Below are positions 20,883 to 52,913 of a stretch of 64,000 bases of DNA, one piece after another. The notes below the pieces were generated by a model. It was not told where the DNA came from. It saw only the letters and a program-made list of their open reading frames with translations, and made no database searches. Each line of letters begins with the position of its first letter. Position 1 is the stretch's first letter. The position numbers and the translations under genes are program-made. This stretch comes from Zingiber officinale (lineage: Eukaryota; Streptophyta; Magnoliopsida; Zingiberales; Zingiberaceae): contig NC_055992.1 of assembly GCF_018446385.1 (NCBI RefSeq), forward strand, positions 22,042,877 to 22,106,876. The letters run 5' to 3'.

Positions 20883-20885
20883 ATT

Positions 20886-28858: not shown

Positions 28859-29944
28859 TGTTGGAGCAATCTAGGTGCCCTAAGTTTTGATGTTTGGGCA
28901 AAGGTTTAAGTTATGTTTATTGTTGTATTTGATATGCATTGTGAGTGTGCAGGATACAGGTACAACAAGGAAAGTCCAAGGGTGAGTCTTGGCGGTGTAA
29001 GTCCAAGCATGTAGTCTTGGCAACGTAAGTCCAAGTGTGATCTTGGCAAAGGAGGAAAGTCCAAGGATGAGTCTTGGCGGTGTAAGTCCAAGCATGTAGT
29101 CTTGGCAACGTAAGTCCAAGTGTGACTTGGCAATGGATGAAGTCCCGGAGGCGCGATCTCTTGGAAAAGGAAGACCCGACAATAATGACAAGGCCGATGG
29201 AAGCTCCAGAAGGCAAGACGTGAAGGATGGGGAGGTATCCGAGGGACGCAAGGCTGATGGAGGAAGTTAGAAGGCTAGGTCTAGGTTTGTCGGGCGAGAA
29301 CGAGTGTTGAGTAAATGTACTCGAGGTAAAATCCTAGAATTAGGGTTACTGTAGCGTTACTGTAGCGTTACTGTAGCAGTCGACTGGTGACTGTAGCAGT
29401 CGACTGGTGCACTGTAGATAGCCGTTGAGAGAGCCGTTGGGCTGACACCAGTCGACTGGTGCAAGGACCAGTCGACTGGTAACGGGCAAATCAGCTTACT
29501 GATTTGTTCCAAGCTCTATAAGAAGGAGCTTGGGATGGCCGGCCAAGGTGACGAAATTAGACTTGGTTAAAGCCTAATTAGTAGTCACCAAAGTGCTCAA
29601 GGATCTCTTGTGTCCAAGTGATCTTGGTTGGAGTTGTGGTGAGGTTTCTCCACCCACAAGGAGGTTGAGCTAGCCGGAGTTTGCCGGGGACTAATCCACC
29701 GACGGATTGAGGGATCGTCCACCTTACGGACACGCCGTGGAGTAGGAGCAAGTTATCTCCGAACCACGTAAACACCTTGTGTTAGGGTTTGTGTTTGGTT
29801 TGTTGTCTTCTTCTTTCTTGTTTAGGTTAACTTTCGTATTTGTTAGTTTGTTTTTGTATTCCGCTGTGCACTAACATTATAGGAAGTAAAGTTTTGGGTG
29901 AGACGCTATTCACCCCCCCTCTAGCGGACGTCAAGGTCCTAACA
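28859..29944 (+). mobile_element. Solo LTR with CAGTCGACTGG palindromes
   Basis: It runs from TGTTGGAGCAATCTAGG to GTCCTAACA and has an exact GTCTT duplication (28854-28858 and 29945-29949). It is related to the LTRs of the gag-only element at 33594-47630 in the opposite orientation; both carry GTGTTTGGGCAAA-like starts, repeated CAGTCGACTG, the GGACACGCCGTGGAGTAGGAG block and ATTCCGCTGTGC. A ~76-bp unit (GTCCAAGCATGTAGTCTTGG) is duplicated at about 28975-29130. The end CACCCCCCCTCTAGCGG is typical of the U5 of this group. It lies just downstream of the Tat integrase. Confidence 0.9.
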
Positions 29945-30198: not shown

Positions 30199-32544
30199 TC
30201 ATTTGAATTCAGAAAAAGCATCATCAGACATTTTTCTAATGATCTGATGATGATCCAGGAAATTCTCGGGAGGATCAAACGATAGATACCCTCCCTCTTG
30301 AAGTTGTTAGACTGCTCCTACTGCTCCATAGGTCAGTGATCGGATGAAGCGATCTCCTACCTGAGAGACAAACTCCAGAGAGCGCAAGTACTCTGCCCGA
30401 TCAGTCAACCGACGCTCGTTCTCTCCCGCCTTGTAAGTTTCAAAGGCCTGAGCTGACTGAGACAATGCTGATCGGCCTTGAGACAACTCTGCTCGCAAGG
30501 AGTCCAGCTCTATAGCCTAAGATTGCTGATCCCTTCTATGGTCTATGAGGATCACATCCTTAGAGTTAAGTTCCTTGGTCAAGTGGTCCATCTTTTGCTT
30601 GTGGATGAGTCTGAAGTCCTCTAAGGTTGCAGTTTGTTGAGCCAGCTTTGACTGTGCTTTCTCCTTGAGGGTAAGCTCTTCTTGATACTTAGCTTTAGAT
30701 GACTGGTGGAGAGCTTCTAGTCTCTTCTTATCATCCCGGAGTCAATCAGTCTTCAGTTGGGCTCGACCTGGGTTATGTTCATGGGATGCATTTACCTTTC
30801 TTAAGGTCTCCACCTCTGCCTTTAGTTGGGACACGACCGAAGAGGGGTCAGAAAGTTGAGACTCCAGGTCAACAACACAATCCTTTAAGATCTTATTCAG
30901 CCGATTTATATACGAGAACGTCTGACTCAAGCACATCGACTTGGCAAATATCTATTCATATAAAGAGGTAGTCAGGATAGGAAGAGAGGAGCAGTAAAAG
31001 AAAGCGAAGACGTACCACCCTGGCACTTTCAGAGAATAGATCCACCTGGGCAGGCAGTGAGAGGACATCCATTTGCTTCATAGTCTGCTCCCAATGAACC
31101 ACTAGTTGTCCTCGCAGTAGGATAGAGCTAGCCTGGGTGGTGGGGTTGCGACGCAAACCCCACTCAGAAGGCATAATAACACAGAAGCGGAAGCGCCAGG
31201 ACCGAGATGATCTGGGAGGGTACCGTTGGGGTCAGGTTGAGAGGAAGTATGCCCAGGTTAGGCGAAGGGGCCAGGTTGAGTAGAAGAGGACGGTTGGGGA
31301 GAAGAAGGCCCAATCGGGGCAGCCGGTGTAGATTGCCACTCTGGATCTCTCTTCCTTAACGACCGAGGTCTTCCCTCGATCAGTTCCTAATCGGGGTTCT
31401 GGAAGAATAACAAGGTTGCCTCGGTGTTGTGGATCGGGATTAGAAGATGGCGTTATCGGGGGTCGGGAGTTCATGACATGTGCCTTGGCTACCAGACGGG
31501 ATCCAGTAGATCTGCGCCTTGATCGATGCAAGAGTGACTGATTGTCTGAGTTGGACCCCCCTTCTGAGGTTTGGGAGTGATGAGTGGGAGGAGCAGGATG
31601 AGTCCACCTCATAGGACCTGGAGTAGAGTATACATGAGGCATCGCTTGAAAGGCAACAGAACAATAGACAGTAGTGGCATCCACCCCAGGAACGACTGAA
31701 GTAGAATGTGGAAGGTTCCTCCTACCCAAGATTATGCACCCTCGATGATTTATCTCCAAAGCGCTTAAGGGGAGCGACCTGATCAAATATAAACGGGCGA
31801 GTGTGTCGACTGCAGCAGAATGAGAGTTAGCGCGAAAGGTGAGAGAAAGTTAAGGTGACAATAATGCTTACCAAGGGAGTGCGATAACTCTAAAGGAACG
31901 AGACTCAGCCTAAATAAATACAACACATCCTCCATTAACAAGATGCTCAGATCGAAGTACCAACCCTCTAGCTACGACGACGCCTCCACAAAAGTAGGGT
32001 TTGAGTGATAGTATCCCATAGGAGGCGCTAAGGGGACAGAGAGGCATGACTCAGTAGGCCACTCTACAGCAGAGGGGAAGCGAAGGAAGAAATATTTATT
32101 TTTCCACTCTGCTCCTGAGGGAGGTAAGGGAGCAAAAAGATTGGTCTGGGTACGAGCTTGGAAGCGAAAAATGCCCTCACTATGACACCGAGGAATGAAG
32201 AAATAGTGAAATAGGCGAGGAGTCCAATGTATATCGCGCAAGTCACAGATAAGCACGGACCTACACAGGATCCGAATGGAGTTGGGGGTGAGTTGACAAA
32301 GCGAAATATGAAAGTAGCGACTTACATTGGAAAAGAAGGGGTGGATAGGGAAACAAAGACCGACCGCAACCTGTTCTTTGAAAAAAGTCACGCATCCCTG
32401 AGGTGGATGGAAGAGTTGATGAATCTCAGGAGGTATGATGATGTGCATGGCTGTGGATACCTCATAGACAAAGTGGAGATTGTCCAGATCTACACCACTG
32501 AAGGTGGAGACTCCCGGTGCATACCTAGGTAGGGGAGAATCCAT
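30199..32544 (-). pseudogene. Tat antisense gene A: gypsy-accessory protein with coiled coil, decayed
   Basis: The gene is on the strand opposite to gag-pol. The N-terminal frame (32544 to 31972, 190 codons) has FFKEQVAVGLCFPIHPFF, YFHISLCQLTPNSIR and TPRLFHYFF. This pattern resembles the plant 'putative gypsy type transposon' domain (Pfam Transposase_28, by recall). A Pro/Ser-rich middle follows (31786 to 31232), then a block with WGLRRNPTTQASSILLRGQL (31160 region). A candidate 64-bp intron runs from GTACG at 31015 to AG at 30952. A long heptad-rich coiled coil continues to 30310, and the conserved tail PPENFLDHHQIIRKM is followed by a stop at 30199. Several stops and frame breaks show decay. 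A TATA box lies 107 bp before the start. The function is unknown; Grande elements carry a nuclear protein in a similar place. Confidence 0.7.
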
Positions 32545-32650
32545 GAGAAGGTCAAGGCTACAAGCAAAAGACCATAAAAGGCACGGAAGGAAGAGGAGAA
32601 GGGAAGGCGACTTCAGCTATCAGCGAAGAAGTCCAAATGGAAGAAGCAGG

Positions 32651-32660
32651 CTATTTATAG
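32651..32660 (-). promoter_or_regulatory. TATA box in front of antisense gene A
   Basis: On the minus strand this reads CTATAAATAG, a textbook plant TATA box, 107 bp before the ATG of antisense gene A. It suggests the gene had its own promoter, apart from the LTR. Confidence 0.55.
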
Positions 32661-33286
32661 TAGCGTGAGGAGATGTTTTGAAGGACGTCTCGACATCAGT
32701 GCCAATTACACGATCTGTAAATGAGGTAGCTGGAGTCAGCCATGAGCGTGGAAGCAACGCTAGCCATGGGATCGCCTTAGAAAATCATGCAAAAAGGTCG
32801 TGTCAGAAAAAGTGAGGTCGAGGGACACGTGGTAAAAGGGAATGGGGAGCTTCTATAGCATCGAGATAGGCGAGGCTACAATAATTCCCACTGGGGCCAG
32901 TAAAGCAACCCTGGGGTCATTGTGGCTTGCAACTTATCAAATAGCTAAATCGTGTAGCATGTTTAGGAGACTAAAGAGGCTAGTCGGGATAGACACCCAG
33001 TCAGGTAAAGAAACCCTTCTTGATGCCTACCTAGGTGGCAAACAGACTAGGCATTCACGAAGGGGTCAGACACTTGACAAGTTACTTACTCCTATAAAGT
33101 AAAATGCCTTAAGGTCTTGGACGGACTCCTTTAGACACTCTGGCGTCTCATGTCATACTGATAACAAGTCCATCCACGTAAACTGTACACAACTTCTTAA
33201 CGAAATTTCAAGATTAAGGTCGCAGAGAAGTTTGAAGCTTTACATCATTCAGAAACAAAATAAAGGTAGTTACAGTAGAACACAAG
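32661..33286. other. Spacer between antisense genes A and B
   Basis: About 0.63 kb of Tat internal DNA. I see no LTR end, no target duplication and no polyprotein remnant, which argues against A and B coming from two separate elements joined here. Confidence 0.5.
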
Positions 33287-33593
33287 TTATTCAACCAAAG
33301 GGAAGCCTTCGTCGGGAAGCTCATTCAGGAGACGGGTCCGGTCCAGGAAGTTCTCAAGGGGAATCAACCGGAGCAAGCCTTTCTCTTGTAGCTGCAGCAA
33401 AACCCTTGCACAGCCATAACAAAGCATGGTCGATGAGATTGCCTATCTTCACTCCAAACTCTTTGGAGGCCAGGAAGGAGGCCTTGTGAGCTACTAGACG
33501 AGAGCTCTTGCCCTTCTGATAATCCTTCATCTCTCCCCTAGCTTCATCTGCGTCGGCCCGTGCCTTGGCTAACTCCTAACGGGAGGACAGTAT

Positions 33594-34637
33594 TGTTGGG
33601 GGATCGGTGATCGGCTTGAAGGGGGGTTGGATAGACGACACCCCCAAATACTCGCTTCCTACGTATTTGTTAGCACAGCGGAATACAAACAATACAAATA
33701 CAAATACAAATACAAATACGAAAGCTAAAGAATAAGAATGAGAAAGACAAGCAAACCAATTGAACCGTTCGTTTACGTGGTTCGGAGATAACTTGCTCCT
33801 ACTCCACGGCGTGTCCGTAAGGTGGACGATCCCTATCCGTCGGTGGATTACTCCCCGGAAGACCTCCGGCTAGCTCAAACCTCCTTGTGGGTGGAGAAAC
33901 CTCTCCACAACTCTCACCAAGGACTCTTTACAAGCTAGGGCACAAGTAGACTACTAATAGGGGTTAACCACCTCTATTTCATCAAACTCAACCAAGCTCC
34001 CAAGGCTTGGTTATATAGGCCACGTGTTGGAAAACCCTGCCTACCAGTCGACTGCTAAAACATGCAGTCGACTGCCCTCTGTGGAAATTCGACCGTTACA
34101 TCCCAACGGCTCGATTCCACACTAACCGAGCGAACAGAGACATTCTGTTCGCTGCCAGTCGACTGCACTAGTCGACTGCTAAAACATGCAGTCGACTGCT
34201 ACAGTACTACTACAGTAACGCTACAGTAAAACCCTAAAATTAGGATTTTACTCCGAGTACAATCTCTCGTACACTCGTACCCTCACCCTTATGACTCACT
34301 TGATGCTTCCTTTGCAGCTTTGACTTTTTGCCTTCAAGCCTACTTCCTTTGGCTCTCGTCCCTCGGATGCATTCAAGCCTGCGGCTCATCCCCAATGTCA
34401 TCCTTCGCGTATGCCTCGAAGTCGCTTCCCTCGTCCCTTGTCCTTGCTGCCTTGTCAACGGTCCCTCGGATGCTCCATCCTTCACTGGACCCGAAGCCGT
34501 CAACCTGAGTTACATGTGTATCCTGCAGTCCTGCACAACTCAAGTACACATATCAAATACAAGGGTGAACCTAACTTAAACCTTTTGCCCAAACACCAAA
34601 ACACATAGTCCCGAGGACCATCGGGATTGCTCCAACA
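33594..34637 (-). repeat. 3' LTR of the gag-only element
   Basis: 1044 bp, running TGTTGG to CA on the minus strand. It is very similar to the split LTR at 37398-37620 plus 46798-47630, with scattered base changes and a small length difference in the CAGTCGACTGC cluster. Palindromes CAGTCGACTG recur at 34045-34200. Short multi-frame ORFs at 34240-34608 exist in both copies and are LTR text, not genes. Confidence 0.9.
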
Positions 34638-34710
34638 ATCTCCCCCTTTTGGTGTTTGACAATACGTTTAAGTTAGGGAAAACATATAGCAAATAAACAT
34701 GTTAAAACAA

Positions 34711-34841
34711 ATGGACTTACGTTGCCAAGGCTATACACTTGGACTTACACTGCCGAATGGACTTACGTTGCCAAGGCTACACACTTGGACTTACACTGCC
34801 GAATGGACTTACGTTGCCAAGGCTACACACTTGGCAACCGC
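34711..34841. repeat. 46-bp tandem repeat, ~3 copies
   Basis: ATGGACTTACGTTGCCAAGG begins at 34711, 34757 and 34803. The words GACTTACGTTGCCAAGG also occur, reversed, in the solo LTR at 28859-29944, which links the two elements. Confidence 0.85.
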
Positions 34842-35690
34842 CGTAACAATGCATCATGCATTTGAACCTATCCCAAGACTCCCCCTACAACTGCGCTCCC
34901 CATGAGCTAGGATTTTTACAACGGGCTTTTTAAGAACCTATCCCAAGGCTCCCCCTACACAAAGGTACTTTCAGGTTTTCCAAACTAAACCTTACTTCTC
35001 CCCCTTTGCCTAACATCCAAAAAGTTCTCCAACAATATCCCAATTATTGAAAACTTATCATCCAAATGACCCTAAACTCATGTATGTATCCCCCATGGAT
35101 CTCATACATCTATATGAGCTGACCCGATCAAAAACCAGTTCTGAAAATACTTTCAGATTGGTATCAGTCGACTGCAAGAAGTATCAGTCGACTGCCCTCA
35201 TGAAAACGAGCTTACAGAGACATTCTGTGCTCGTGAACAGTGTTACCAGTCGACTGGTACACTATTCATGAAAAAATCAACCTTTTCTGGCCAACTTCAG
35301 AAATGTGCCAGAAATTCCACAGACCTCCAAAAATCTCCAAATTTTGTAGAGAAGTCTATTATATCAATATCTACTTGGGAAAAATATATATAAAAATATA
35401 TCTATCATCAATCCCAAGATTGACACAAAACACAAAACTAGCTAAAAAGTTCAATTGAACCTTGACCTAAAGTCCTAGTTTTGGCTTCCTCTTGATGTAT
35501 TTGCCCATACTAACCCACAATGCATCCCTAGCATTGGTTTATATGGCATCTATACATCCAAAACCAATTATCATGCTATATAACCCCAATGTCATATTTT
35601 CAAGCATGAAACACAACTCATGTGTGTCAATTCCCTAGGTTTGAGACTCAAGTCCGTCTCCAAACCACTTGGCACATTCCATGACCTAAC

Positions 35691-37343
35691 CTAGACTCCC
35701 AAGTAAAACCCACTTGAGATCCATTGGCCATGGGTCCCAAATTGATTCTTTGAGCTCCCCCTAGAGCTCTTAGCCTTAGCCACCTCCCTAGGTGACTCAT
35801 CCACAATGGCTAGGCCATTCCGGTGCACCTCCGGTGACACTTGGCCTACAAATCTAACTTTCTTAACCTTGGACACTTTGTCCTTGGTTAATTTCTCCTT
35901 ACCTTTAAATGACTTTTTCTTGTCATTTATTGACTTCTCCTTCCTATAGTCATATGCAACCCTAGCATAAGACTTTCCCTTAGCATTGGAGACATTAGAT
36001 CGGTATCCCAAACTCGATCTATCATTGCTGGGTCTTTGGCTACCCAACACCATACATAAACCCTTAGATCCAATATTGAATCTTTCTAGGGTTCTCTCCA
36101 ACTTATCAAGCTTTGCCTTCAAAACTTGATTTTCCCTTTCTAGGTTCCTAAACCTAGAATCAACATGTCCACAATGGACATTCCTAGACCTACCCTTCCT
36201 AGGCATATGTCTCCCCTTCTTGGGATTAATGCCTTGGGTCTCCTTAGGTCTTTCATTTCTAGATTTATCATGCATTGGTCTCCTAGGGTTATGGTCTACC
36301 TTAACCCTACTTCTATCATGATATCTAAAACTGAAGTTATGCATGGGCAAATAATAACACTTATTTCTAGCATGCATGGGAGTATAAGAATTTAAATTTG
36401 AATTAACCTTCAAGTTAGGGTATACCTCCCTTACCCTTGAAGCTCCCCCTTGACTTGAGCTTTTCTTCTTCTTCTCTTTCTCCCATTTCTTCAATTTTGC
36501 AAGCTTCTTGATTTCCCCCTTTTTGGGGCATTTGGTGTGGTAGTGACCCTTCTCTCCACACGTGAGGCATATGATGCACATCTTCTTCTTTTGGACTTCT
36601 TCATTCCTACAACCCACATTAGAGTTTAAAATAACTTGATTGAGTTTAGGATTTACCTTCTTCTTACCCATAGGACATCTATTCTTATAGTGTCCCTTCT
36701 CATTGCACCCGAAGCATATTATATGGTCTTTTGACTTCACTTCGGTGGAGGTGCTTGCTAGGTTGATTTCCAAGACTTCTTCTTCTTCTTCTTCGCTTGT
36801 CTTGGATTCTTCTTCAACCTTTGAGGATGTAGATGTTATATCTTCCTCATCCACACTTGTGGATGACCTTTCTTCATCCTTTTCCTCAAATGTGACCAAA
36901 TTCACTTCCTCTTCTTCTTTTGATGTTGAATTGGTCTCCACATCCGATTGATCCTTCTCTACTTGAGCTTCTTCATCCATTTCTTCGGATTTTTCTTCTT
37001 CTTGTGTAGGCATAGGTTCTTCCCATTGAGCCTTCTTTATCTTGCTCCACAAATCATGAGCATTCTCGTATTTACCTACAAGGCTCATTACGTCATTAGG
37101 CAAAATATCAATTAATATAGATATTACCTTGTCGTTTGCCTTTGATCGTGTGGTTTGATCCTCTGTCCAATGTCGTGGTCGGAGCTTCTTTCCCTTCTTG
37201 TCCTTCGGGACTTCGAACGGTTCCTTTACCACCATCATGATGTCCCAATCCGTATTGAAGAAGACCTCCATCTTCATCATCCAATACGTGATGTCCCACA
37301 AGCCCCTACCTTCAAGCTTTAGCGGTTCAATTAAGTCGATCAT
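35691..37343 (-). CDS. Gag protein of the non-autonomous element (UBN2-type, two zinc knuckles)
   Basis: This is an open frame of 550 codons from MIDLIEPLKLEGRGLW. The frame stays open upstream through the primer site and into the LTR, so the ATG at 37343, the first after the primer site, is the likely start. Residues 1-120 resemble the copia-type gag-polypeptide domain (TTRSKANDKVISILI, YENAHDLWSKI). A Glu/Ser-rich acidic stretch follows (about 120-225). Two CCHC knuckles come next: CFGCNEKGHYKNRC and CLTCGEKGHYHTKC. The last third is basic, with RNLERENQVLKAKLDKLE as a short coiled coil. It would form particles and bind RNA. No pol frame follows. It has no internal stop, unlike everything around it except the TCP and alpha-galactosidase genes, so it is recent or was kept under selection. 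Confidence 0.85.
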   Translation of the reverse strand: MIDLIEPLKLEGRGLWDITYWMMKMEVFFNTDWDIMMVVKEPFEVPKDKKGKKLRPRHWTEDQTTRSKANDKVISILIDILPNDVMSLVGKYENAHDLWSKIKKAQWEEPMPTQEEEKSEEMDEEAQVEKDQSDVETNSTSKEEEEVNLVTFEEKDEERSSTSVDEEDITSTSSKVEEESKTSEEEEEEVLEINLASTSTEVKSKDHIICFGCNEKGHYKNRCPMGKKKVNPKLNQVILNSNVGCRNEEVQKKKMCIICLTCGEKGHYHTKCPKKGEIKKLAKLKKWEKEKKKKSSSQGGASRVREVYPNLKVNSNLNSYTPMHARNKCYYLPMHNFSFRYHDRSRVKVDHNPRRPMHDKSRNERPKETQGINPKKGRHMPRKGRSRNVHCGHVDSRFRNLERENQVLKAKLDKLERTLERFNIGSKGLCMVLGSQRPSNDRSSLGYRSNVSNAKGKSYARVAYDYRKEKSINDKKKSFKGKEKLTKDKVSKVKKVRFVGQVSPEVHRNGLAIVDESPREVAKAKSSRGSSKNQFGTHGQWISSGFYLGV

Positions 37344-37383
37344 CTTTTCTTCCTTGGCGGTTAGTCCAATGGAGAGCGGCCTT

Positions 37384-37395
37384 GCTCTGATACCA
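37384..37395 (-). promoter_or_regulatory. Primer binding site of the gag-only element
   Basis: On the minus strand this reads TGGTATCAGAGC, complementary to the 3' end of initiator tRNA-Met, 2 bp after the 5' LTR. Confidence 0.9.
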
Positions 37396-37620
37396 CTTGT
37401 TGGGGGATCGGTGACCGGCTTGAAGGGGGGTTGGATAGACGGCACCCCCAAATACTCGCTTCCTACGTATTTGTTAGCACAGCGGAATACAAACAATACA
37501 AATACAAATACGAAAGCTAAAGACTAAGAATGAGAAAGACAAGCAAACCAATTGACACGTTCGTTTACGTGGTTCGGAGATAACTTGCTCCTACTCCACG
37601 GCGTGTCCGTAAGGTGGACG

Positions 37621-39453
37621 TGTTAGTGAGAGCCCTAGAGCCAATCATGTGATGGTTACTTTTTGGACTCTTTGTATCATATTCTTGTACATATATTTCT
37701 GATATATAAATAAAGGCATTATGATTATTATACTTGTGTGTATTTGTGCTATATAAATAAGTATAATAATGTCCTAGGGTAGTAGGTTCATATCTATATC
37801 AATCGATTAGTTAAATCGATAGTGAGATGATATAGAGAACACTACACTTAATTATTCCTAGTCAAGTATTAACATAGAAGGACAATGTTAATGCATTGAG
37901 ACTAGCATGTAGGTCAACATGATGACTTGATCTCACAAGTCATGGATATGAGATATCAAGTTGACACATGGGTATACATTGGAGAATGTATACTGAATGA
38001 CCCGCCATGAGAAAGTATCATGGATCGTTATATGAGTGTCATATACTTTCTCAAGTGACTATTAGTATGACTTTAGTCCTTAGACCTGAAGTCACCATGG
38101 TTCCCTACATAAGGAGTTATGTACTTTGGTTTCATCAAACGTCAACTGGGTGGACTATAAAGGCGATTCTGGGTATGTAACAAATTATGCGGAGGGATGT
38201 GAGTGATGTAGATGGGATCTATCCCTCCTATATTACAGGAGTGATATCATAGTCTTGATAGAGTGAGATCACTAAGTGCATGGCCATGCCCAAATAAGGC
38301 AATATGTGATATTGTGCTTATTTGATTATAGTGAAGTCTACTTGGAGTTCAAGACACTTAGATTGATTGGAGGATGACACGGTCTATGCCTCATATAAGA
38401 TCAATCTAGATATCAAGGATAGAAGGACAATGTCACATATTGTGAGAGTCACAATTATTAGTCATATTGGTGATGTTGGATCTCAACATTCTTGTAACTT
38501 GGGTAGCAATGATGTGTTGCTAGATACCTCTTATTGCTTATGTCCCTAATTGGATTTAGGGACATTGCCAACGTTGACAAGAACCTATAGGGTCACACAC
38601 ATAGAGCAATAGATGGAGACTAGTTCATATGATGAACCAAGAGGAAAGATGAAGTCAAGTTTGACTTGGCTAAATATGGAAAGTCTATAAAAGGCAAGTT
38701 TGACTTGACCTAAATCCACAAGTTTGACTTGACTATGAGTTAGACTCAAGTATGATCCAAATGTTGGATAAATCAATTAAGGGAGTTAATTTGGTCATGT
38801 TTGACTTTGGCCAAATTAGGAAGGTTGAAAGTCAATATTGACTTGACTTGGATGCCACCACATTTGATGAGGTGGCATGGGAGAACCAATGGGGATGCTA
38901 CACATCACCATGCCACCTCATGCTTGCCACCTCATGGGAGGTTACCCATGAGTGGCCGGCCACATTAAGGGGGCAATTAAGAGCATTAATTGCCCACTTA
39001 ATGACATTTATGTGGCCGGCCACATGATATGGTGGATTGATTGAATTTTTGAATTTAATTTTTTGATTCTTCTTCTTCCTTGGTGCTCTCGGCAACTTCT
39101 CCCTCTCTTCCTCCTCTTCTTGGCCGAAAACCACATAGGTGCTAGCACACCTTGTTTCGATCATCTTCTCCACCTAATTGCTTGTGTGGACACATATAGA
39201 GGGGCTCTACTTTGTGCCCTCTAGATCCAACTTCAACCTTAGTCGAGCGGGATAAGCGAAGGGCACGCATCAAAGGTAGTTTTTCTTTAAACTATAGATC
39301 TAGGAGTAGATCTAACATATTCGGGTATTAAGCATGATATAAATACGTGGAATTTTTTGAATCGGATTTTTCTTTGCATGAGATCCTTGGCTAGGGTGTT
39401 TCGGGGTTTCCGCGACGCGAAAAGTGGTTTTCGTGGCCCGAAAAATTCTAACA
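37621..39453 (+). repeat. 5' LTR of the copia element
   Basis: TGTTAGTGAGAG to ATTCTAACA, 1833 bp. TATA box TATAAAAGG at 38686-38694. Around it (38650-38850) the words TTTGACTTG and TTGACTT(G/T) recur, giving at least eight TTGAC cores. GGCCGGCCAC occurs twice near 38955 and 39015, as an inverted pair around an AT-rich loop. Confidence 0.95.
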
Positions 39454-39454
39454 G

Positions 39455-39466
39455 TGGTATCAGAGC
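39455..39466 (+). promoter_or_regulatory. Primer binding site of the copia element
   Basis: TGGTATCAGAGCC follows the 5' LTR after one base, complementary to initiator tRNA-Met. Confidence 0.95.
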
Positions 39467-40988
39467 CATCGTGCGAAGCACGTATTTATTTTTTTTCTGT
39501 ATTAGATACAAAATTTAGATGCTTTTAAGTTTCTGTGATTTTTCTAAATTTTAGGAATTTTTGGGTATTTTTCTCGTAGAGGCGAAAGAACGAGTGCGAA
39601 GCACTTGTACACTTTTGTCACCGAGAAAAATTTCTCCGAAACGGCAAGTTTCACCCAAATAGATTTTGGGACAGCAGGTAAGGGCGCTGTATAATCGCAA
39701 GAGGACACTCGCGAAGGTTATTTCGCGAATAGGGGCGCTGCCCCTAACCCCGCAAGGGGCCTTGTCCCGCGATTACGCCCGAAACCCGCTTAGCGGGACC
39801 GCCGTGGAGAAGGGACTCAAAAAAAATTCAGAAAAATCAGTAGAAAAATTTTAAATAAAAAAAAAATACACAATTCTGAATTATGTACAGTATGTGTTGG
39901 TCATGGCCCAAGTCCCAGAATTTTTATGAAAAATTATGCGTGTAATTCATAATACGGCCTGCGTGCCGTCATGTGTTATGTGTGCTGTATTGTGGATGCG
40001 ACCTGCGTGTTGCCTTTTTCCATTATTTTATTTCTGTAAAAATTAGTTTTAAGACTCGAATGTAACTCGAGTATAAATTTTGTAATGTACAAAATTTGAA
40101 GATGACGAAATTCCGGAGAAGACGGACTCGCGGGAGCATGCCGGCAACACATGGGGATCGGAAGGAGGAGCTTGGAGAAGCTGCCACCTAGACCCTAGGA
40201 TGACCATTGGATCTTCTCTTTGGCTAGAGAGGATCCTAGTAGGGCCATGACCAATCACATAATTTAAATGTATATATTTTATTTTTGCTTATGTGTATGT
40301 GATGCATGTTTGTGTAGAATAGAATTTGCATGAGTGTATGTGATGCACATGTGATGTGGGAACCACATCTTGATGTGCACAATACACATTTAGGATTTAA
40401 ATTAGATTTAATTTACGCCTAAATATGATGCACATCGTCGATTAGATTAGATCTAAATTGAAATCAACTCGTAAACGCCTACCGGGCCATGATACCCATC
40501 ACTACCTCGATCATATGCGATTGTCGTATCTGCCAAAGCAGAGCAACGCATTTAATCTTGGTAGGATGCGGAGGGACAACCTTGGTCCCGCCTATCACGC
40601 TCGGGTTAGATTGAGCTCAATTAGATTGAGTAGCTAGCAAAGCTCAATTGGATCGAGTGAAGCTATAGGCGTATTCCAATAGTTGGAAAGGTAGGACAAG
40701 ATCACGTTTATAAATAATCTTGGGCGATTTAGCCAAAGCTAACTCAAGATTATTTGTAAAAGTTAAATCTTGATCCTATAAACAAGAGTTGCATGGAGAT
40801 GTAATTGGTAATTAGCTACCTACCGATCATACTAGGTCTTGGGCGATTCAGCCAAAGCTGACTCAAGATGTAGTATGATGTGGATCTTGTCCCACAAAAT
40901 TCAGTGGGAGCATCATTTAATTAAAGGCCTAATTAGATGATAGAATATGATATTGATTTTCTGCATGTTTAATATGTTGTAGATTGCC
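39467..40988 (+). other. Long untranslated leader of the copia element
   Basis: About 1.5 kb between primer site and gag. It has a GC-rich patch (39670-39810) with short inverted repeats such as CCCCTAACCCCGCAAGGGG, and duplicated phrases CTTGGGCGATT(T/C)AGCCAAAGCT near 40720 and 40840. No ORF of note is present. The structure may serve packaging, but that is inference. Confidence 0.6.
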
Positions 40989-43900
40989 ATGTCACCAAAC
41001 GCGAACACTCTCTCCCTACGATCTGTCCTTGAGAAGGACAAGCTCACAGGAGCTAACTTCCTGGACTGGTACAGGAACCTGAGGATAGTCCTCATGCAGG
41101 AACGTAAGCTGTACGTTCTGGAGCAAGCAGTTCCTGAAGCACCACCAGCCTCTGCCGCTCGTAGCATTAAGGATGCTCATCAGAAGCATCAAGATGATGC
41201 GTTAGACGTGTCGTGCCTAATGCTATGCTGCATGTCCTCTGAGCTTCAGAAGCAACACGAGAACATGAATGCCTTTGATATGATTGGCCATCTTAAGCAA
41301 TTATATCAAGGGCAAGCATGAGAGGTTTGAAGTGACTCGGGCCCTCTTTTCATGTAAGATGAAAGAGGGAACCCCTGTAGGAACTCACGTACTCAAGATG
41401 ATTGGGTACTTCGAGAACCTAGAGAGGTTGGGGTTCCCATTGGGCCAAGAGCTGGCCACTGACTTGATCCTGCAATCGTTGCCGGCAAGTTACCGTCAAT
41501 TCGTCATGAACTATAACATGAACGAATTAGACAAACCACTGCCCGAGATGCTCAACATGTTGAGAACTGCTGAGCCCAATCTCACCACTACCAAGACCAG
41601 TACCGTCTTGATGGTACAAAAGGGCAAGGGTAAGGGCAAGTGGAAGCCCAAGGGTAAGGGTAAGACCCAGACCAAGGGCAAAGCCAGCTCTTCAGCACTC
41701 AAACCCAAGGGCGGGGTGCAAAAGGATGCTACCTGCTTCCACTGTGGTCAGACAGGGCACTGGAAGAGGAACTGCAAGATCTACCTGGAGGATCTTAAGA
41801 AGAAAAGAAGCGAGGCTTCTACTTCAGGTATAAATGTTATAGAAGTCAACCTTTCTATTTCTACATCATGGGTATTAGATACTGGATGTGCATCTCACAT
41901 TTGTACTAATGTGCAGGCGCTGAGAAGTAGCAGGGCATTGGCAAAGGGCGAGGTGGACCTACGAGTAGACAATGGAGCAAGGGTTGCTGCTGTTGCTGTA
42001 GGAACATATTTTCTATCTTTGCCCGCTGGGCTTGTATTGGAACTAGATAATTGTTGTTATGTCCCTGCACTAACAAAGAATATTATTTCAGTTTCCTGTT
42101 TAGATAATAAAGGTTTTTCATTCATAATAAAGGACAAATGTTGTTCTGTTTATTTGAAAGATATGTTCTATTGTAGTGCACATCTGATGAATGGCCTCTA
42201 TATTCTAGATTTAGAGAGCCCTATCTATAACGTGAGTACCAAGAGGTTGAGATCAAATGAGTTGAACCCAACCTATCTCTGGCATTGCCGCCTAGGCCAC
42301 ATAAACGAGAGTCGCTTGTCCCAGCTCCATAAGGATGGTTTGCTGGACTCATTTGATTTTGAATCATATGAGACATGTGAGTCATGCCTTCTAGGCAAGA
42401 TGACCAAGACTCCCTTTAGTGGACATAGCGAGAGAGCGACAGACTTGCTAGGACTCATACATAGTGATGTATGTGGCCCTTTCAATATCGCTGCTCGGGG
42501 TGGTTATAGGTACTTTATCACATTTACTGACGACTTCAGTAGATATGGTTATGTGTACTTGATGACACATAAGTCTGAATCCTTTGAAAAGTTCAAGGAA
42601 TTCAGAAATGAAGTACAAAACCAGCTCGGCAAAAGTATTAAGATACTTCGATCAGATCGAGGTGGAGAATACTTAAGCCATGAGTTTAGTGACTATCTAG
42701 CGAGTGTGGGATTCTATCCCAACTCACTCCTCCTGGAACACCATAGTGGAATGGTGTATCCGAAAGGAGGAATCGTACCTTATTAGATATGATACGATCT
42801 ATGATGAGTCACACAGATCTTCCTATATCCTTTTGGGGATATGCTCTAGACACAGCAGCATTCACACTTAACCATGTTCCATCCAAAGCTGTGATAAAGA
42901 CACCATATATGACATAGACTGGGAGAGATGTCCAGGAGTCTTTTATGAGGATTTGGGGTTGTGAGGCTTACGTTTGACGTCAAGTCTCGGATAAACTGGG
43001 ACCCAAATCCGATAAGTGTTATTTTATAGGATATCCCAAGGAAACTAAGGGATATTACTTCTACATTCCTAGTCAGCACAAAGTGTTTGTTGCTAAGACT
43101 GGGGTCTTTCTAGAAAGGGACTTTGTTTCTAGAAAGGCTAGTGGAAGTTCGTTTGATCTTGAAGAAGTTCAAGACAACGACCAAAACACTGAGCCATTGA
43201 TGGATACTGAACAGGAACCACAAAGAGTTGTGGATGATGAGATTGTTGCACAAGAAGTTGTGGAACAACAACCTGTTCATGTAGACCTACCTCTTCGCAG
43301 GTCTGGTACGTCGTCACCGAGAGATACTCATTTATCTTGCCTGACCAGGATGACGTTATGCTCATTGAGAATGAGCCTACCACCTATCAGGAAGCTGTGA
43401 TGAGCCCAGATTCTGAGTCATGGCTAGAAGCCATGAGATCTGAAATGGATTCCATGTACACCAACCAAGTTTGGACCTTGGTTGATCCACCTGAAGGGGT
43501 CAAACCTATTGGGTGTAAGTGGGTCTTTAAGAGAAAGACTAACATGGACGGACTTACTCATACCTATAAAGGTAGACTGGTAGCTAAAGGTTTCAAGCAG
43601 ATTCATGGTATTGACTATGATAAAACCTTCTCTCCAGTAGCGATGTTTAAGTCCATTCGGATTATGCTTGCTATTGCAGCCTACCATGATTATGAGATCT
43701 GACAGATGGATGTCAAGACAGCGTTTCTGAATGGAAACCTCCTCGAGGATGTGTACATGACACAGCCTGAGGGTTTTGTAGATCCACAGCATACTAGCAG
43801 AGTATGCAAGCTGCATAGGGCCATTTATGGTCTGAAGCAAGCCTCTCGGAGCTGAAATCTTCGATTCGATGATGCAATCAAACAGTTTGGTTTCATCAAG

Positions 43901-44937
43901 AATGAAGATGAACCCTGTGTCTACAAGAGGGTTAGTGGGAGCACAGTTGTCTTCCTCGTATTGTATGTGGATGACATACTTCTCATTGGGAACGACATTT
44001 CCTCGCTACAGTCTGTGAAGACTTGGCTAGGGAATTGTTTCTCAATGAAGGACTTAGGTGAAGCAGCCTGCATTCTAGGCATTAAGATCTATAGAGATAG
44101 ATCTAAGAGATTGCTTGGCCTAAGTCAGAATACATACATTGACACGGTATTACTTCGGTTTGCCGTGCAGAATTCCAAGAAGGGAAATCTGCCGATGTCA
44201 CATGGTGTGAGTCTTTTGAAGACTCAAAGTCCCTCTTCTAGAGAGGAGAGGGACCGCATGGATAAGATCCCCTATGCCTCGGCCATAGGATCTATCATGT
44301 ACGCCATGTTATGTACTCGTCCTGATTTCTCGTATGCTTTGAGCATGACGAGCAGATACCAGTCAGATCCAGGTGAGCATCACTGGATTGCGGTCAAGAA
44401 TATCCTTAAGTACTTGAGAAGGACTAAGGATTATTTCTTGATATTTGGAGGTGATGAGCATCTAGTTGTAAAGGGTTACGATGCTAGCTTCCAAACCGAC
44501 TGGATGATTACGGATCGCGATCGAGGTTCGTGTTACGCTTGAATGGTGGAGCCGTGAGTGGAAGAGTTGAGCGGGACACGATTGCAGTGTTCTACAACGG
44601 AGGTTGAGTATATTCTTTCGCATCGAGGCGAGAAGGAGGCGCTTTGGATCCCAAGTTCATTTCGAGCTTGGGGTGGTTCCTAGCATATCGATCCCGTAGA
44701 GCTCTACTGCGACAACAATGGAGCTATTGCGCAGCTAAGGAACCTCGCTCACACCAGCGGACAAAGCATATACTACGGCGCTTCCATCTCATTCGAGAGA
44801 TCATCGATCGAGGAGATGTGAAGATTTGCAGAGTACCCACAGAGGCTAACGTCGCAGATCCCTTGACCAAGGCTTTGGCACAGATTAAGCATGATGGTCA
44901 CACTAGGTCATTGGGTATTAGATACTACAGCGATTGA
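40989..44937 (+). pseudogene. Copia gag-pol polyprotein gene, lightly damaged
   Basis: Gag starts MSPNANTLSLRSVLEKDKL at 40989 and shifts frame near 41315. The main frame then runs to 42786: a basic KGKGKWKPKGKGK stretch, knuckle CFHCGQTGHWKRNC, protease WVLDTGCASHIC, the pre-integrase block LWHCRLGHINESRLSQL, and integrase with HSDVCGPF, FTDDFSRYGYVY and LRSDRGGEY. A second frameshift near 42700 and a TAG near 42756 break integrase. RT: GCKWVFKRKTNMDG, LVAKGFKQ, FSPVAMF, stops TGA at 43700 and 43853 where Trp is usual, and LYVDDILLIG at about 43960. RNase H ends with the TKHILRRFHLIREI block and ADPLTKAL, after a damaged stretch at 44540-44640. One polyprotein is normal for copia; here at least three breaks prevent it. 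Confidence 0.9.
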
Positions 44938-44957
44938 CACTAGTGCTAGTGGGAGAT

Positions 44958-46792
44958 TGTTAGTGAGAGCCCTAGAGCCAATCATGTGATGGTTACTTTT
45001 TGGACTCTTTGTATCATATTCTTGTACATATATTTCTGATATATAAATAAAGGCATTGTGATTATTATACTTGTGTGTATTTGTGCTATATAAATAAGTA
45101 TAATAATGTCCTAGGGTAGTAGGTTCATATCTATATCAATCGATTAGTTAAATCGATAGTGAGATGATATAGAGAACACTACACTTAATTATTCCTAGTC
45201 AAGTATTAACATAGAAGGACAATGTTAATGCATTGAGACTAGCATGTAGGTCAACATGATGACTTGATCTCACAAGTCATGGATATGAGATATCAAGTTG
45301 ACACATGGGTATACATTGGAGAATGTATACTGAATGACCCGCCATGAGAAAGTATCATGGATCGTTATATGAGTGTCATATACTTTCTCAAGTGACTATT
45401 AGTATGACTTTAGTCCTTAGACCTGAAGTCACCATGGTTCCTACATAAGGAGTTATGTACTTTGGTTTCGTCAAACGTCACCCGTGAATGGGTGGACTAT
45501 AAAGGCGATTACTGGGTATGTAACAAATTATGCGAAGGGATGTGAGTGATGTAGATGGGATCTATCCTCCTATATTACGGGAGTGATATCATAGTCTTGA
45601 TAGAGTGAGATCACTAAGTGCATGGCCATGCCCAAATAAGGCAATATGTGATATTGTGCTTATTTGATTATAGTGAGTCTACTTGGAGTTCAAGACACTT
45701 AGATTGATTGGAGGATGACACGGTCTATGCCTCATATAAGATCAATCTAGATATCAAGGATAGAAGGACAATGTCACATATTGTGAGAGTCACAATTATT
45801 AGTCATATTGGTGATGTTGGATCTCAACATTCTTGTAACTTGGGTAGCAATGATGTGTTGCTAGATACCTCTTATTGCTTATGTCCCTAATTGGATTTAG
45901 GGACATTGCCAACGTTGACAAGAACCTATAGGGTCACACACATAGAGCAATAGATGGAGACTAGTTCATATGATGAACCAAGAGGAAAGATGAAGTCAAG
46001 TTTGACTTGGCTAAATATGGAAAGTCTATAAAAGGCAAGTTTGACTTGACCTAAATCCACAAGTTTGACTTGACTATGAGTTAGACTCAAGTATGATCCA
46101 AATGTTGGATAAATCAATTAAGGGAGTTAATTTGGTCATGTTTGACTTTGGCCAAATTAGGAAGGTTGAAAGTCAATATTGACTTGACTTGGATGCCACC
46201 ACATTTGATGAGGTGGCATGGGAGAACCAATGGGGATGCTACACATCACCATGCCACCTCATGCTTGCCACCTCATGGGAGGTTACCCATGAGTGGCCGG
46301 CCACATTAAGGGGGCAATTAAGAGCATTAATTGCCCACTTAATGACATTTATGTGGCCGGCCACATGATATGGTGGATTGATTGAATTTTGAATTTAATT
46401 TTTGATTCTTCTTCTTCCTTGGTGCTCTCGGCAACTTCTCCCTCTCTTCCTCCTCTTCTTGGCCGAAAACCACATAGGTGCTAGCACACCTTGTTTCGGT
46501 CATCTTCTCCACCTAATTGCTTGTGTGGACACATATAGAGGGGCTCTATTTTGTGCCCTCTAGATCCAACTTCAACCTTAGTCGAGCGGGATAAGCGAAG
46601 GGCACGCATCAAAGGTAGTTTTTCTTTAAACTATAGATCTAGGAGTAGATCTAACATATTCGGGTATTAAGCATGATATAAATACGTGGAATTTTTCGAA
46701 TCGGATTTTTCTTTGCACGAGATCCTTGGCTAGGGTGTTTCGGGGTTTCCGCGACGCGAAAAGCGGTTTTCGTGGCCCGAAAAATTCTAACA
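44958..46792 (+). repeat. 3' LTR of the copia element
   Basis: 1835 bp, nearly identical to 37621-39453. A short purine tract (GTGGGAGA) precedes it. It ends ATTCTAACA, followed by the GGACG duplication. Confidence 0.95.
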
Positions 46793-49739
46793 GGACGATC
46801 CCTATCCGTCAGTGGATTACTCCCCGGAAGACCTCCGGCTAGCTCAAACCTCCTTGTGGGTGGAGAAACCTCACCACAACTCTCACCAAGGACTCTTTAC
46901 AAGCTAGGGCACAAGTAGACTACTAATAGAGGTTAACCACCTCTATTTTGTCAAACTCAACCAAGCTCCCAAGGCTTGGTTATATAGGCCACGGGTTGGA
47001 AAACCCCGCCTACCAGTCGACTGCTAAAACATGCAGTCGACTGCCCTCTGTGAAAATTCGACCGTTACATCCCAACTGCTCGATTCCACACTAACCGAGC
47101 GAACAAAGACATTCTGTTCGCTGCCAGTCGACTGCCCCAGTCGACTGCACCAGTCGACTGCTAAAACATGCAATCGACTGCTACAGTACTTCTACAGTAA
47201 CGCTACAGTAATACTACAGTAAAACCCTAAAATTAGGATTTTACTCCGAGTACAATCTCTCGTACACTCGTACCCTCACCCTTATGACTCACTTGATGCT
47301 TCATTTGCAGCTTTGACCTTTTGCCTTCAAGCCTACTTCCTTTGGCTCTCGTCCCTCGGATGCATTCAAGCCCGCGGCTCATCCCCAATGCTATCCTTCG
47401 CGTATGCCTCGAAGTCGCTTCCCTCGTCCCTTGTCCTTGCTGCCTTGTCAACGGTCCCTCGGATGCTCCATCCTTCACCGGACCCGAAGCCGTCAACCTG
47501 AGTCATGTGTGTATCCTGCAGTCCTGCACAACTCAAGTACATATATCAAATACAAGGGTGAACCTAATTTAAACATTTTGCCCAAACACCAAAACACAAA
47601 GTCCCGCGGACCATCGGGATTGTTCCAACAAGTATCTCCGTCCTAGCCGCTGAAAACTCCGTCTGTGCAGATTTGAAAGCAGCCTGAGCCGTATCAAATT
47701 GCTTTTGAAGGGAAACCTCCCGATCAATGCTAGTAGATAGATCTGCCATTTTACCAGTCAGGTCTGTCTTCAAAGAGGCGTATGCCTCTTGGAGCTCCCG
47801 CAGTTGCGAGCCCTCAGACTTGAGCTTGGACTCGCTGGTCTTTAGGATGGTTTGCAAGGACTGTATCTTCTCTGACTCTGTGTGCGCCATGCTCCTGGCA
47901 ATTTGGGTTTGCTTCTCTACCGTCTGCAAATGAGATTGGATCAGGCTATCGGTGGTTGTCAGGTCAAAAGCACAGTTGGCGGTCATAGGAGGCACCATCT
48001 CCTGAATGCGATCCCTCAAGGACTCGTTCTCCCGGAGAAGACCATCCACGAATTGGGATAGGCTCAACCCCGTGACATAGGTATGTAGAAAGCGCGGGCA
48101 GGATTAGCAGTATTTCAAGGATGCGAAAGGGAAGAAAATAAAACGTACTGACACTAGTCGTTGGGAGAACTCGTCGTCCAAGTCTAGTTGGGGGCATTTC
48201 AAAATCTGGTCGGCCGCACTTTTCCATGAATAAACCAGGGCACTGTGAAGTTACACTTGGCCGCAGTTGGGAGAGGTGTTGGCAAAAGAGATGTAGCCCA
48301 ACACCTGCAGGGATGACAATTGGAATAAAGAGGTGAAGGCATATCGCCCTTTGAGGCGTTCCTTGGGGTGAGAAGAGGAGGCAGGAGCGGAAGTTAGTTG
48401 TTGGCCCAAGGATGAAGTTGCTGAAGGCGTAGCACTCCCAGGCTGGCCTCCCGCTCAGGTGGCTGCCTGCTCCTGGATGGGGACTGGAACAAGAGAAGAG
48501 TCCGTAGCCTCTGTTGCAAGGGTAGTGCTCACCCGAGCTGGAGTTTGGCCTTGGAGGATGCCCGCGATAAGGGCAGCCTTTGAGGTGAAGATTGGACTGA
48601 TGGGGTCACACGTCGTCTTTTGCGTTGAAGGCGTAGGCGCTGCTCGGGAGATGGAGAGGGATCCCTCTCACTAACAGCTACCTCATCGAGGAGTGATTCA
48701 ACTTCGGGGGCCTTAGGGTCTCCTGACTATTGAGAAATAGCCCCTGCTGAGGCGTTGGCCTAGGGAACCTCCTGGCCAGCCATGATCTCCCTACCTCGCT
48801 TCCACAAGATCACACTAGGCATCGTGGAGGAATCGAGGGCAAAGGCATGAAACATGATGACTTCTGCAGACAAAGAAAAATACCTCAGTTAGTGGAGATA
48901 TGCAAGGAAAGTCTAGTGATTTTACCAAAAGGTGTGCTTAGAGACATCTGGATGGGGCTTAACCCGAAAGTATATAGCATTCTCTCCCATAGCAAAGAAG
49001 AGAGTCACAATTACACTCCATCCAGCCTTTCAAAGGCAGTCAAACAAGCGGACTGGTGCTGATGCTCTCTCAACTCGAGGGAAGAAGGGAGATTGAGGTG
49101 ACATTTAATAGGCCAGGTCATGACCTCAGACAATTGGACATAGAAAAAATGGGACTTTCAGCCTTTATTCAAAGAAGGCATGCTCTCAAAAAAACTATAC
49201 CCAGTCTTGGATTGCACCATGAAGACACCCGGCTCCTAGCGCTTAAGGGAATAGAAATGGTGAAAGAGTTCAGGAGTCAAAGGGATCTCATACAGATGAT
49301 ATAAGATCACCATTCTGCACATGGCGCGGAAGGCATTAGGGGAGAACTGGGACAAGGGGATACCAAAGTACTGACTCAAGGAAGAGAAGAAAGAGGGGAT
49401 AGGAAATTAGAGACCTCCGAGAAGTTTATCTTTAAAGAAGATCACAAAGCTGGTGGGAGGGAGATAAGGGAGCGTATATGCTTCGGAAAGTTGCAAACTA
49501 GATTGTACAGACCTAAGGTCACTCCTATCCAAATCCGAATGAAAATATGCATACCATGGTACCGTCATCTCTCTGGCCATTATCGAATCAACAAATGAAG
49601 GGGTAGAAGATGAGAAATGAGAAGCACTTACATGAAAGGAAAAGCGAATGAGCTGAAAGCAGAAGCAAGGAGAGGAAGAAAGGATGAAGGAAGATGAAGC
49701 GTTGATAAACAACTATTGGAGGCCTTTAGAGTTTTTAAA

Positions 49740-50186
49740 CTAAAACCCTTAAGGGGCATTGGGATTTGGGTCAGACAATCGAAACGGTGGAGCACACGAT
49801 GACCATCAGATCAAGAGAAAGAGGCACCCTGGGGTCGCATGCAGAAAACATGCGTTAGACATTATAACAAGGAAAGTTTGTATGGCACATGTCAGCTCCC
49901 TATAAAATGACATTTATGATGAAAAGGATAGGAAAATCATGGAGGTGATATGCAAACAGTGGCACCCCTACCTCCTGAAGATCATGCCTATAGGACCAAA
50001 AATTCCATCTCGGGAAATGGAGAAGAAGGTGGCGTGAAGCGTTGATCAAGATTGGCGCCTTATCTTCGGAATCTGAGTAAGATTCAAATTTAACTATTGA
50101 CTTATGCAATACGCTTCATGATCGCAGGCGGATTAGGCTAAGTCCCCGGGCACAACTCTTTTAATCCATAACTACTTCCCTTCTAG
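49740..50186. other. Tat 3' region between antisense gene B and the tandem arrays
   Basis: About 450 bp with no clear coding feature. It is the upstream (promoter) side of antisense gene B. A 69-codon frame on the minus strand at 49900-50109 is not recognised. Confidence 0.4.
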
Positions 50187-50330
50187 ACCAATTCTCGAGC
50201 AGGCATCCAAACCAATTCCTGGTCAGGCTTCCAAACCAATTCTCGGTCGGGCTTCCAAACCAATTCTCAATCGAGCTTCAAGACCAATTCTCAATCGGGC
50301 TTCCAGACCAATTCCTGGTCGACTTCGAGA
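50187..50330. repeat. 24-bp tandem repeat, six copies
   Basis: ACCAATTC begins at 50187, 50211, 50235, 50259, 50283 and 50307, exactly every 24 bp, with units of the form ACCAATTCTCGGTCGGGCTTCCAA. It lies in the 3' part of the Tat element. Confidence 0.92.
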
Positions 50331-50344
50331 CTCTCGCCCCAGTG

Positions 50345-50965
50345 TGAGTTATAAGTGATCATGCTTTCACGGCCAACGACCTCTCAGTCAAGCTCCAGAC
50401 TCTCGCCCCAGCCCGAATTATAAGTGAGCATGCTCTCACGACCAACGACCACTTGGTCAAGCTCCAGACTCTTGTCCCAGCGCGAGTTATAAGTGAGCAT
50501 GCTCTCACGACGAACGACCTCTCGGTCAACCTCGAGACTCTCGCGTTAGTGCGAGTTATAAGTGAGCATGTTCTCATGACCAACGATCTCTCGGTCAAGC
50601 TCCAGACTCTTGCCCCGACACGAGTTATAAGTGAGCATGCTCTCACGACCAACAACCTCTCGGTCGGGCTCCAGACTCTGGCCTCAGTGCGAATTATAAG
50701 TGAGCATGCTCTCACGACCAACGACCTCTCAGTCGGGTTCTAAACTTTTGCCCTAGCACTAGTTATAAGTGAGCATCCTCTCACGACCAATGACCTCTCG
50801 GTCGGGCTCCAGACTCTCACCTCAGTACGAGTTATAAGTGAGCATGCTCTCACGACCAACGACCTCTTGGTTGAGCTCCAGACTCTCGCCCCAGCGTGAG
50901 TATAAGTGAGCATGCTTTCACGACCAACGACCTCCCGGTCGAGCTCCAGACTCTCGCTCCAAACT
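50345..50965. repeat. 69-bp tandem repeat, ~8.8 copies
   Basis: ATAAGTGA starts at 50351, 50420, 50489, 50558, 50627, 50696, 50765 and 50834 (all 69 bp apart) and at 50902 (68 bp, one base lost). Each unit holds GAGCATGCTCTCACGACCAA, CGACCTCTCGGTC and CTCCAGACTCTCGCCCCAG. Because 69 is a multiple of three, long frames open through it on both strands, such as 50359-50721 minus. These are repeat by-products. Arrays of this kind in the 3' untranslated part of Tat elements can seed satellites. Confidence 0.95.
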
Positions 50966-51268: not shown

Positions 51269-51625
51269 CTAGCTCAGCCTTAGTCGACTGAATGATACAT
51301 CGTTGTTGAGAAATGGTTTCATGTTTGATCTGGGCTTCTTCTTGAAGAAGGGATATGGAAGCTGTATATTTCTCTTTAGGTAGATCAGGAATTGGGCTTG
51401 ACTCTCCAGGTCTGCACAAGCTTTATGTTTCAGATCTACTTCAACTCGAGCCCGAGATTTAGCAACTAGCCAAAGTTCCTCAATTTCTCGACGAAATGAA
51501 GATTGAAGATCCCTATCCTGTGTCATCTCGGCTAAGGCTGTACCCCTTTGGGTAAGTAGTTGAGTCATCTGATCTAATTGTTGACGGAGGCGCTGCAGTT
51601 CATTAGACTCAGAATTTAAATTCAT
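51269..51625 (-). CDS. Tat antisense gene C: small coiled-coil protein, 118 residues
   Basis: An unbroken frame on the strand opposite to gag-pol starts MNLNSESNELQRLRQQLDQM. Residues 5-85 are charged with heptad Leu/Met spacing (LRQQLDQMTQLLTQ, then IEELWLVAKSRARVEVDL, then ADLESQ), a coiled coil. The tail is basic and proline-containing. TATAAAT at 51807-51801 (minus) lies 176 bp upstream of the ATG. The 3' LTR is a little further upstream. I recognise no family. It may oligomerise with the coiled coils of antisense genes A and B, but that is inference. In a decayed element, an intact 118-codon frame is notable but could be chance. Confidence 0.5.
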   Translation of the reverse strand: MNLNSESNELQRLRQQLDQMTQLLTQRGTALAEMTQDRDLQSSFRREIEELWLVAKSRARVEVDLKHKACADLESQAQFLIYLKRNIQLPYPFFKKKPRSNMKPFLNNDVSFSRLRLS

Positions 51626-52908: not shown

Positions 52909-52913
52909 ATATA

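Follow-up and report, generated by a model that had tools for sequence, protein, structure and literature searches.

Two antisense genes in a Tat/Retand-type element of ginger

The 64,000-nucleotide stretch of the Zingiber officinale genome analysed here (the window; C7:22042877-22106876 in a searched genome of 3.09 Gb in 211 contigs) contains a retrotransposon of the Tat/Retand type in which two genes, A and B, lie between pol and the 3' long terminal repeat (LTR). Both are read from the minus strand, opposite to gag-pol, in agreement with the original prediction. Both window copies are decayed, with stop codons in each gene, and B is in addition split by a large insertion. The features of this region are:

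30199-32544, minus strand: gene A (ATG at 32544, stop codon at 30201-30199; PF04195 match of 38.3 bits)
31810-31871, minus strand: predicted intron 1 of gene A (G/GTAAGC...CTGCAG, phase 1, 62 nt; predicted splice sites)
32545-33286, minus strand: spacer separating B from A, in which coding signal is weak or absent
33287-49580, minus strand: gene B (ATG at 49580, stop codon at 33289-33287), split by a 14-kb insertion
33287-33593, minus strand: 3' end of gene B, with the last stretch of the helical part and the ENFLD tail
33594-47630: 14-kb nested insertion within gene B (one LTR element inside another)
47631-49580, minus strand: 5' part of gene B (TRP28 exon at ~49014-49580, basic RLRLQRKRRR linker and start of the coiled coil)
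48864-48925, minus strand: predicted intron 1 of gene B (G/GTAAAA...CTGCAG, phase 1, 62 nt; predicted splice sites)
49581-50170, minus strand: region upstream of gene B, where TTTAAAA lies 159 nt ahead of the ATG

Genes A and B share domain, tail and predicted intron position

Gene A consists of a TRP28 domain exon (31975-32544), a linker with a basic patch and a C-terminal exon ending in an ENFLD tail. The N-terminal domain that had been proposed as common to the two genes is Transposase_28 (TRP28; PF04195), which is found in both above the Pfam curated cut-off of 26.2 bits: 38.3 bits in window A (E 1.6e-9) and 32.5 bits in the B piece at 49239-49406 (E 1e-7), with 31.8 bits for A and 38.9 bits for B in L009, a locus lacking the insertion. 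Aligned directly in L009, the A and B N-terminal domains are 31% identical over 167 amino acids (E 3e-30). The tails are also related, at 33% identity over 66 amino acids (E 4e-10) in L040, a member of a second family described below, and tail cross-matches between A and B were found in the window family by tblastn comparison of loci. Homology was not shown for the linkers of A and B. A predicted phase-1 intron 1 (G/GTAA) stands at matching places in A and B in both families, which points to genomic DNA or unspliced RNA, and not a spliced message, as what was copied in the duplication. The two genes are thus a paralogous pair by the homology of domain and tail, by predicted intron position and by the grouping of A and B sequences across both families.

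Gene B predates its insertion

The insertion in gene B comprises an outer LTR element, with LTRs at 33594-34638 and at 37397-37620 plus 46793-47631 (self-comparison), and an inner element, Copia-type by eye, with LTRs at 37621-39454 and 44958-46793 that are 98.8% identical; the inner element is seated in the 3' LTR of the outer one. The target-site duplication AGTAT is present on both sides of the 14-kb insert. L009 (C8:19747181-19757180) lacks the insert and has a single target site with one base changed. Its last 400 bases, 27 of LTR and the remainder flank, are 97% identical to the end of the window LTR and its flank, and contigs numbered next to each other often seem to be two haplotypes; judged by these sequences, L009 is the allele of the window element on the other haplotype. 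Because L009 lacks the insert, B can be read as one gene with no repair of the window copy, and the proposal that B is contiguous across the insertion, and the pair older than it, is borne out. The internal part of the outer element carries a 610-amino-acid minus-strand open reading frame (ORF) with zinc-knuckle matches under the cut-off.

The pair recurs in other copies of the window family

Twenty loci of 10 kb were selected by their match to A, the spacer and the B end, a selection that favours copies with the B end. The A domain was present in 20/20, at least one B segment in 18/20 (by blastn; that of L019 is 50 bases only) and the B domain in 12/20. L018 and L021 had no B segment by blastn; in L021, tblastn recovered a 21-residue part of the B tail. 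Five allelic-like pairs (93-98% identical over kilobases) reduce these to 15 distinct loci. Among 10 loci selected from the B side, the A domain was found by tblastn, whole or in part, in eight (as 30 residues in two of them) and was missing from L032 and L036; with three allelic-like pairs these represent seven distinct loci, five of them with A. Copies missing one gene are few (L018, L021, L032 and L036), and no family with a single gene was found among the two families. L019 (2979-6728) and L021 (2981-6727), an allelic-like pair, carry a 1.87-kb tandem duplication of ~92% identity that holds part of the A domain and the spacer, a later event inside the same module.

The spacer between A and B was searched for a hidden LTR or breakpoint that would mark B as having come from another element. 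No repeat was found there in the self-comparison of the window, and the spacer lies beside A, at least in part, in 20/20 loci by blastn, the query for which included the spacer; it is interrupted or partly deleted in L018, L020, L026 and L028. With A/B homology established, and with neither a breakpoint nor, among the two families, a single-gene family found, the proposed duplicate origin of the pair and its residence in one element are supported.

A second family probably places the duplication before the family split

Searching the genome with PF04195 gave 150 scored places, out of 24,225 first-look candidates, with 57.7-66.6 bits, above both window genes; in a control set of 14 known genomes there was signal in one (E. 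coli) and none above the cut-off. At the best-scoring place, L040 carries B at 41-2508, A at 3272-5875 and an integrase at 6188-6898 on the opposite strand; its A and B also contain stops, and PF04195 scores 63.4 bits in A and 35.9 bits in the partial B. L039, of the same family (~82%), has a B end followed by A (60.9 bits). Each half of L040, used as a query against the genome, gave 40 scored copies out of more than 1,500 candidates. At least 14/40 B copies have a scored A copy at most 1 kb downstream on the same strand, and at least 17/40 within 30 kb; both counts are lower bounds, and the unpaired copies may also have A. Relatives elsewhere in the genome thus do carry both genes, in the window family at the 12/20 loci with a B domain and in a second, diverged family in the same gene order.

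A tree of nine domain sequences separates A (five) from B (four) with support of 100/100, with both families on each side. Identity between families is 44-55% for A-type and 50-58% for B-type proteins, as against 27-42% between A and B. Since the A and B groups each contain both families, these sequences are most simply read as showing a duplication older than the divergence of the two families.

L039 contains direct repeats of 1.37 kb (1263-2636 and 5328-6702; 91% identical, starting TGTTAG) that flank gene A, as a pair of solo LTRs or as the two ends of a single unit, and a close match to this repeat occurs in L014. The PF04195 match at G000:C4:67652220-67652414 lies in an open frame of 826 amino acids, the longest among the 150 listed, and may be a fused copy or one adopted by the host.

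Coding frames of both genes show signs of constraint

With 19 loci and the window aligned on L009, most windows of the A and B domains showed an excess of change at third positions of the proposed frame, with shares of up to 0.58. The ratio of nonsynonymous to synonymous substitution rates (dN/dS) was taken as the median of pairwise values across L009-L038 and the window. In gene A it was 0.30 in the domain (403 pairs) and 0.33 in the C-terminal part (299 pairs); in gene B it was 0.24 in the domain exon (101 pairs) and 0.36 in the coiled coil (377 pairs). Other frames of these stretches gave 0.52-1.24. For the B stretch from intron 1 to the coiled coil the value was 0.25 in the frame favoured by third positions and 0.84 and 1.14 in the others. 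These values are descriptive, because the pairs are non-independent, allelic loci are among them and the values are raised by decay of the copies once inserted. A and B both look to be under purifying selection across copies.

Upstream signals and linker motifs

In the window, TATAAATAG lies in the spacer 116 nt upstream of the A ATG and constitutes a TATA box. The motif TATAAATA is found 116 nt before the A ATG in 27/29 aligned copies and ranks third in conservation among 730 10-mers of the spacer and leader. TTTAAAA precedes the B ATG in 11/11 aligned copies and ranks only 31st of 570 10-mers. A mutual duplicate origin of the spacer and the B upstream region was considered and set aside, the matches being at chance level only; descent of the two genes' upstream regions from a common promoter is therefore not supported. 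The B linker holds a basic patch like RLRLQRKRRRVTP and the A linker a patch like DSDDQPL..R.RRR; both are recognisable in both families and altered in many copies, and from their sequence they may be nuclear signals. Further upstream of B (~49721-49739, minus strand), several copies read TTTAAAAACCCTAAA, which resembles a plant telo-box.

Coiled coil and structure models

Heptad periodicity was detected in B (p 0.0005 for the whole exon in L040; p 0.04 and 0.02 by windows), and control TRP28 domains gave p 0.64 and 0.92. The long coiled coil claimed for both genes is accordingly supported for B, while for A the periodicity is mostly non-significant. The C-terminal parts of both proteins are low in proline and glycine. 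The middle of the A TRP28 domain reaches a predicted local distance difference test score (pLDDT) of 74-90 in an otherwise weak model. Comparison by sequence with solved structures gave a best E of 1.4, and one scan of IMG/VR confirmed no relatives of the B domain.

Organization of the host element

The remaining features of the host element are:

19870-20884: 5' LTR, an 85.1% direct match to 51894-52910 (self-comparison)
21397-24867, plus strand: gag, reverse transcriptase and RNase H pieces, interrupted by stops (Pfam)
28040-28677, plus strand: end of pol, with integrase remnant and C-terminal piece
50180-50961: tandem repeat arrays, with units of 24 bp and 69 bp, lying between gene B and the 3' LTR
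51269-51625, minus strand: third antisense ORF, short and Glu/Gln/Lys-rich (MNLNSESNELQ...), at 8103-8342 in L009
51894-52910: 3' LTR, partner of 19870-20884

The element is old, as its LTRs are ~85% identical. The gag piece (21397-21813; PF03732, E 8.1e-14), the reverse transcriptase piece (23308-23823; PF00078, E 5.5e-17) and the RVT_3-type RNase H piece (24373-24867; PF13456, E 1e-15), all on the plus strand, exceed the Pfam cut-offs; the PF13456 (RVT_3) match may correspond to the extra RNase H domain of Tat elements. The integrase match at 28040-28267 (rve) is weak in the window, at 15.8 bits and under the cut-off, while that of L040 is above it; the piece at 28444-28677 resembles, by eye, the integrase end of L040. 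LTRs surrounding gag, reverse transcriptase, RNase H and integrase (the last below the cut-off in the window) fit the Tat branch of Ty3/gypsy, and a long region between pol and the 3' LTR with an antisense TRP28 gene fits Retand.

The third antisense ORF, between the tandem array and the 3' LTR, shows a third-position excess of up to 0.60 and a dN/dS of 0.20, from only six pairs, and may thus be a third gene of the antisense module. Near the end of pol, 28859-29943 (~1.09 kb) is a solo LTR, kin to the outer LTRs of the 14-kb insert and in the opposite orientation, with an apparent AGTCT duplication; it is absent from the allele L009. A stretch in mid-pol (25307-26604) has an 83% inverted match to a distant part of the window (5985-7298) and is probably another repeat, breaking pol between RNase H and integrase.

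Interpretation

Comparison of these copies makes it likely, in our judgement, that the antisense module of these Tat/Retand-type elements consists of two paralogous TRP28 genes in the fixed order 3' LTR-B-A-pol, derived from a duplicated intron-containing gene, most simply before the two families diverged, and both kept by purifying selection during the spread of the elements. Several results limit this reading or weigh against it. The tree comprises one genome and two families, is rooted at its midpoint with no outgroup and includes L040 B as a partial sequence of 104 residues. Third-position excess is also seen in the tandem array (0.51) and, at 0.50, in a single window upstream of B, and another frame is preferred by some windows within A. 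The spacers and the upstream region have dN/dS of 0.53-0.70, not 1, so that the contrast between coding and control stretches is smaller than it looks. Similarity of the spacer between the two families is undetectable, with matches at chance level only. The heptad test of A gave p 0.22, 0.64, 0.83 and 0.05, where L040 A is non-significant and 0.05 belongs to one of two window pieces; the windowed test is itself weak, because the control linker gave p 0.072. The AlphaFold models are poor (mean pLDDT 55.4 and 49.7), and Foldseek comparison of the models with the PDB found nothing (best E 3.9).

In a working model of the module, each gene would have an antisense promoter of its own, and the two proteins would enter the nucleus by means of the basic patches in their linkers. 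There they may act as accessory regulators of element transcription or integration, with TRP28 as the DNA-binding part and the C-terminal parts as contacts to other proteins, possibly to each other. Because neither copy has been lost after long divergence, our best guess is that A and B are two non-redundant partners. The full proposal, that a lineage of monocot Tat/Retand elements encodes an antisense two-protein nuclear regulator of anciently duplicated TRP28 proteins, each with its own promoter, is a tentative one that we consider rather doubtful as a whole.

How two such partners would divide their work allows two accounts with about equal odds, each a serious possibility that falls short of being probable. 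In one, A and B are two subunits of a single complex, pairing via their C-terminal parts. They are paralogues of the same architecture retained together, their identity between families is similar for A and for B, and their C-terminal parts are poor in proline and glycine; the non-significant heptad periodicity of A speaks against such pairing. In the other, A and B are separately specialised, as activator and limiter or as early and late factors, and do not pair physically. Consistent with this, the upstream signals differ (TATA for A, TTTAAAA for B), as do the basic patches, and the heptad pattern is present in B only.

It is far less likely that the antisense ORFs are by-products and that the antisense RNA is what matters, for example through double-stranded RNA that dampens the element. 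Antisense RNA has been suggested as a possible regulator in the available sections of PMC7264820, and the TATA box before A would suit such a role; however, dN/dS is ~0.3 in the A and B coding frames and higher in other frames, and the splice-site pattern and protein motifs are common to both families. Least probable is that B was acquired from a different element, through nested insertion or recombination, and only happens to adjoin A in the window copy, since the A/B identity of only ~30%, although it marks the two as old relatives and not fresh copies, is met by the same gene order in the 12/20 window-family loci still with a B domain and in the second family, by a spacer in which no LTR was found and by a tree that fits joint descent in both families.

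Comparison with known systems

The extra archaeal-type RNase H domain is a feature of Tat elements, and a TRP28 domain was reported in 23% of Retand elements (Neumann, 2019; PMC6317226, available sections). In the sections available of a survey of 63 Retand clusters, antisense TRP28 ORFs occur in all but two, with 57 such ORFs of at least 600 nt and five clusters with short ORFs only (Vicient, 2025; PMC11963269). By our own count this gives 57 ORFs in 56 clusters, or roughly a single TRP28 gene per element, a figure that leaves space for one exception. The ginger element resembles those of the survey in its antisense TRP28 genes between pol and the 3' LTR and in the tandem arrays nearby, and the Smc-like domains in other antisense ORFs of the survey elements may be counted as a further likeness. 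It differs in having two TRP28 genes and in size, the distance from the A end to the 3' LTR alone being 7.6 kb in L009, against 2.9-6.6 kb for the whole region between pol and the 3' LTR in the survey. The monocots named in those sections belong to Poales and Liliales, not to the order of ginger. The binding of DNA by TRP28 is likewise a prediction published there (PMC11963269).

An antisense gene between pol and the 3' LTR is also known from maize Grande (gene23), rice RIRE2 and Silene Retand (ORF4), and for Grande a nuclear location of the antisense protein and a separate upstream promoter of its gene are reported; the available description of these elements mentions no second paralogous antisense gene (PMC7264820). 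No report of two TRP28 antisense genes in one element was found in the literature searched, including the available sections of PMC11963269, PMC7264820 and PMC6317226. What we call new relative to the known antisense TRP28 genes is an old, maintained two-gene antisense module. Antisense TRP28 genes being present in nearly all recently active Retand clusters (PMC11963269, available sections), a pair under selection in two families offers a natural comparison: residues common to A and B should mark the functional core of TRP28, and differing residues the specialised part. These findings suggest that some Tat-type elements have an accessory coding capacity beyond one gene, and that scoring the presence or absence of a domain per element can miss a second gene.

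Human T-cell leukemia viruses (HTLV) are not known to have more than one antisense gene per virus. The HTLV proteins HBZ and APH-2 (PMC11963269, available sections) are, like the proteins proposed here, antisense nuclear accessory proteins of a retroelement, a parallel drawn as an analogy with no claim of sequence relation. If the two-protein regulator proposed for a lineage of monocot Tat/Retand elements is real, it would give a retroelement a two-component accessory system, with a logic comparable to that of the accessory genes of complex retroviruses.

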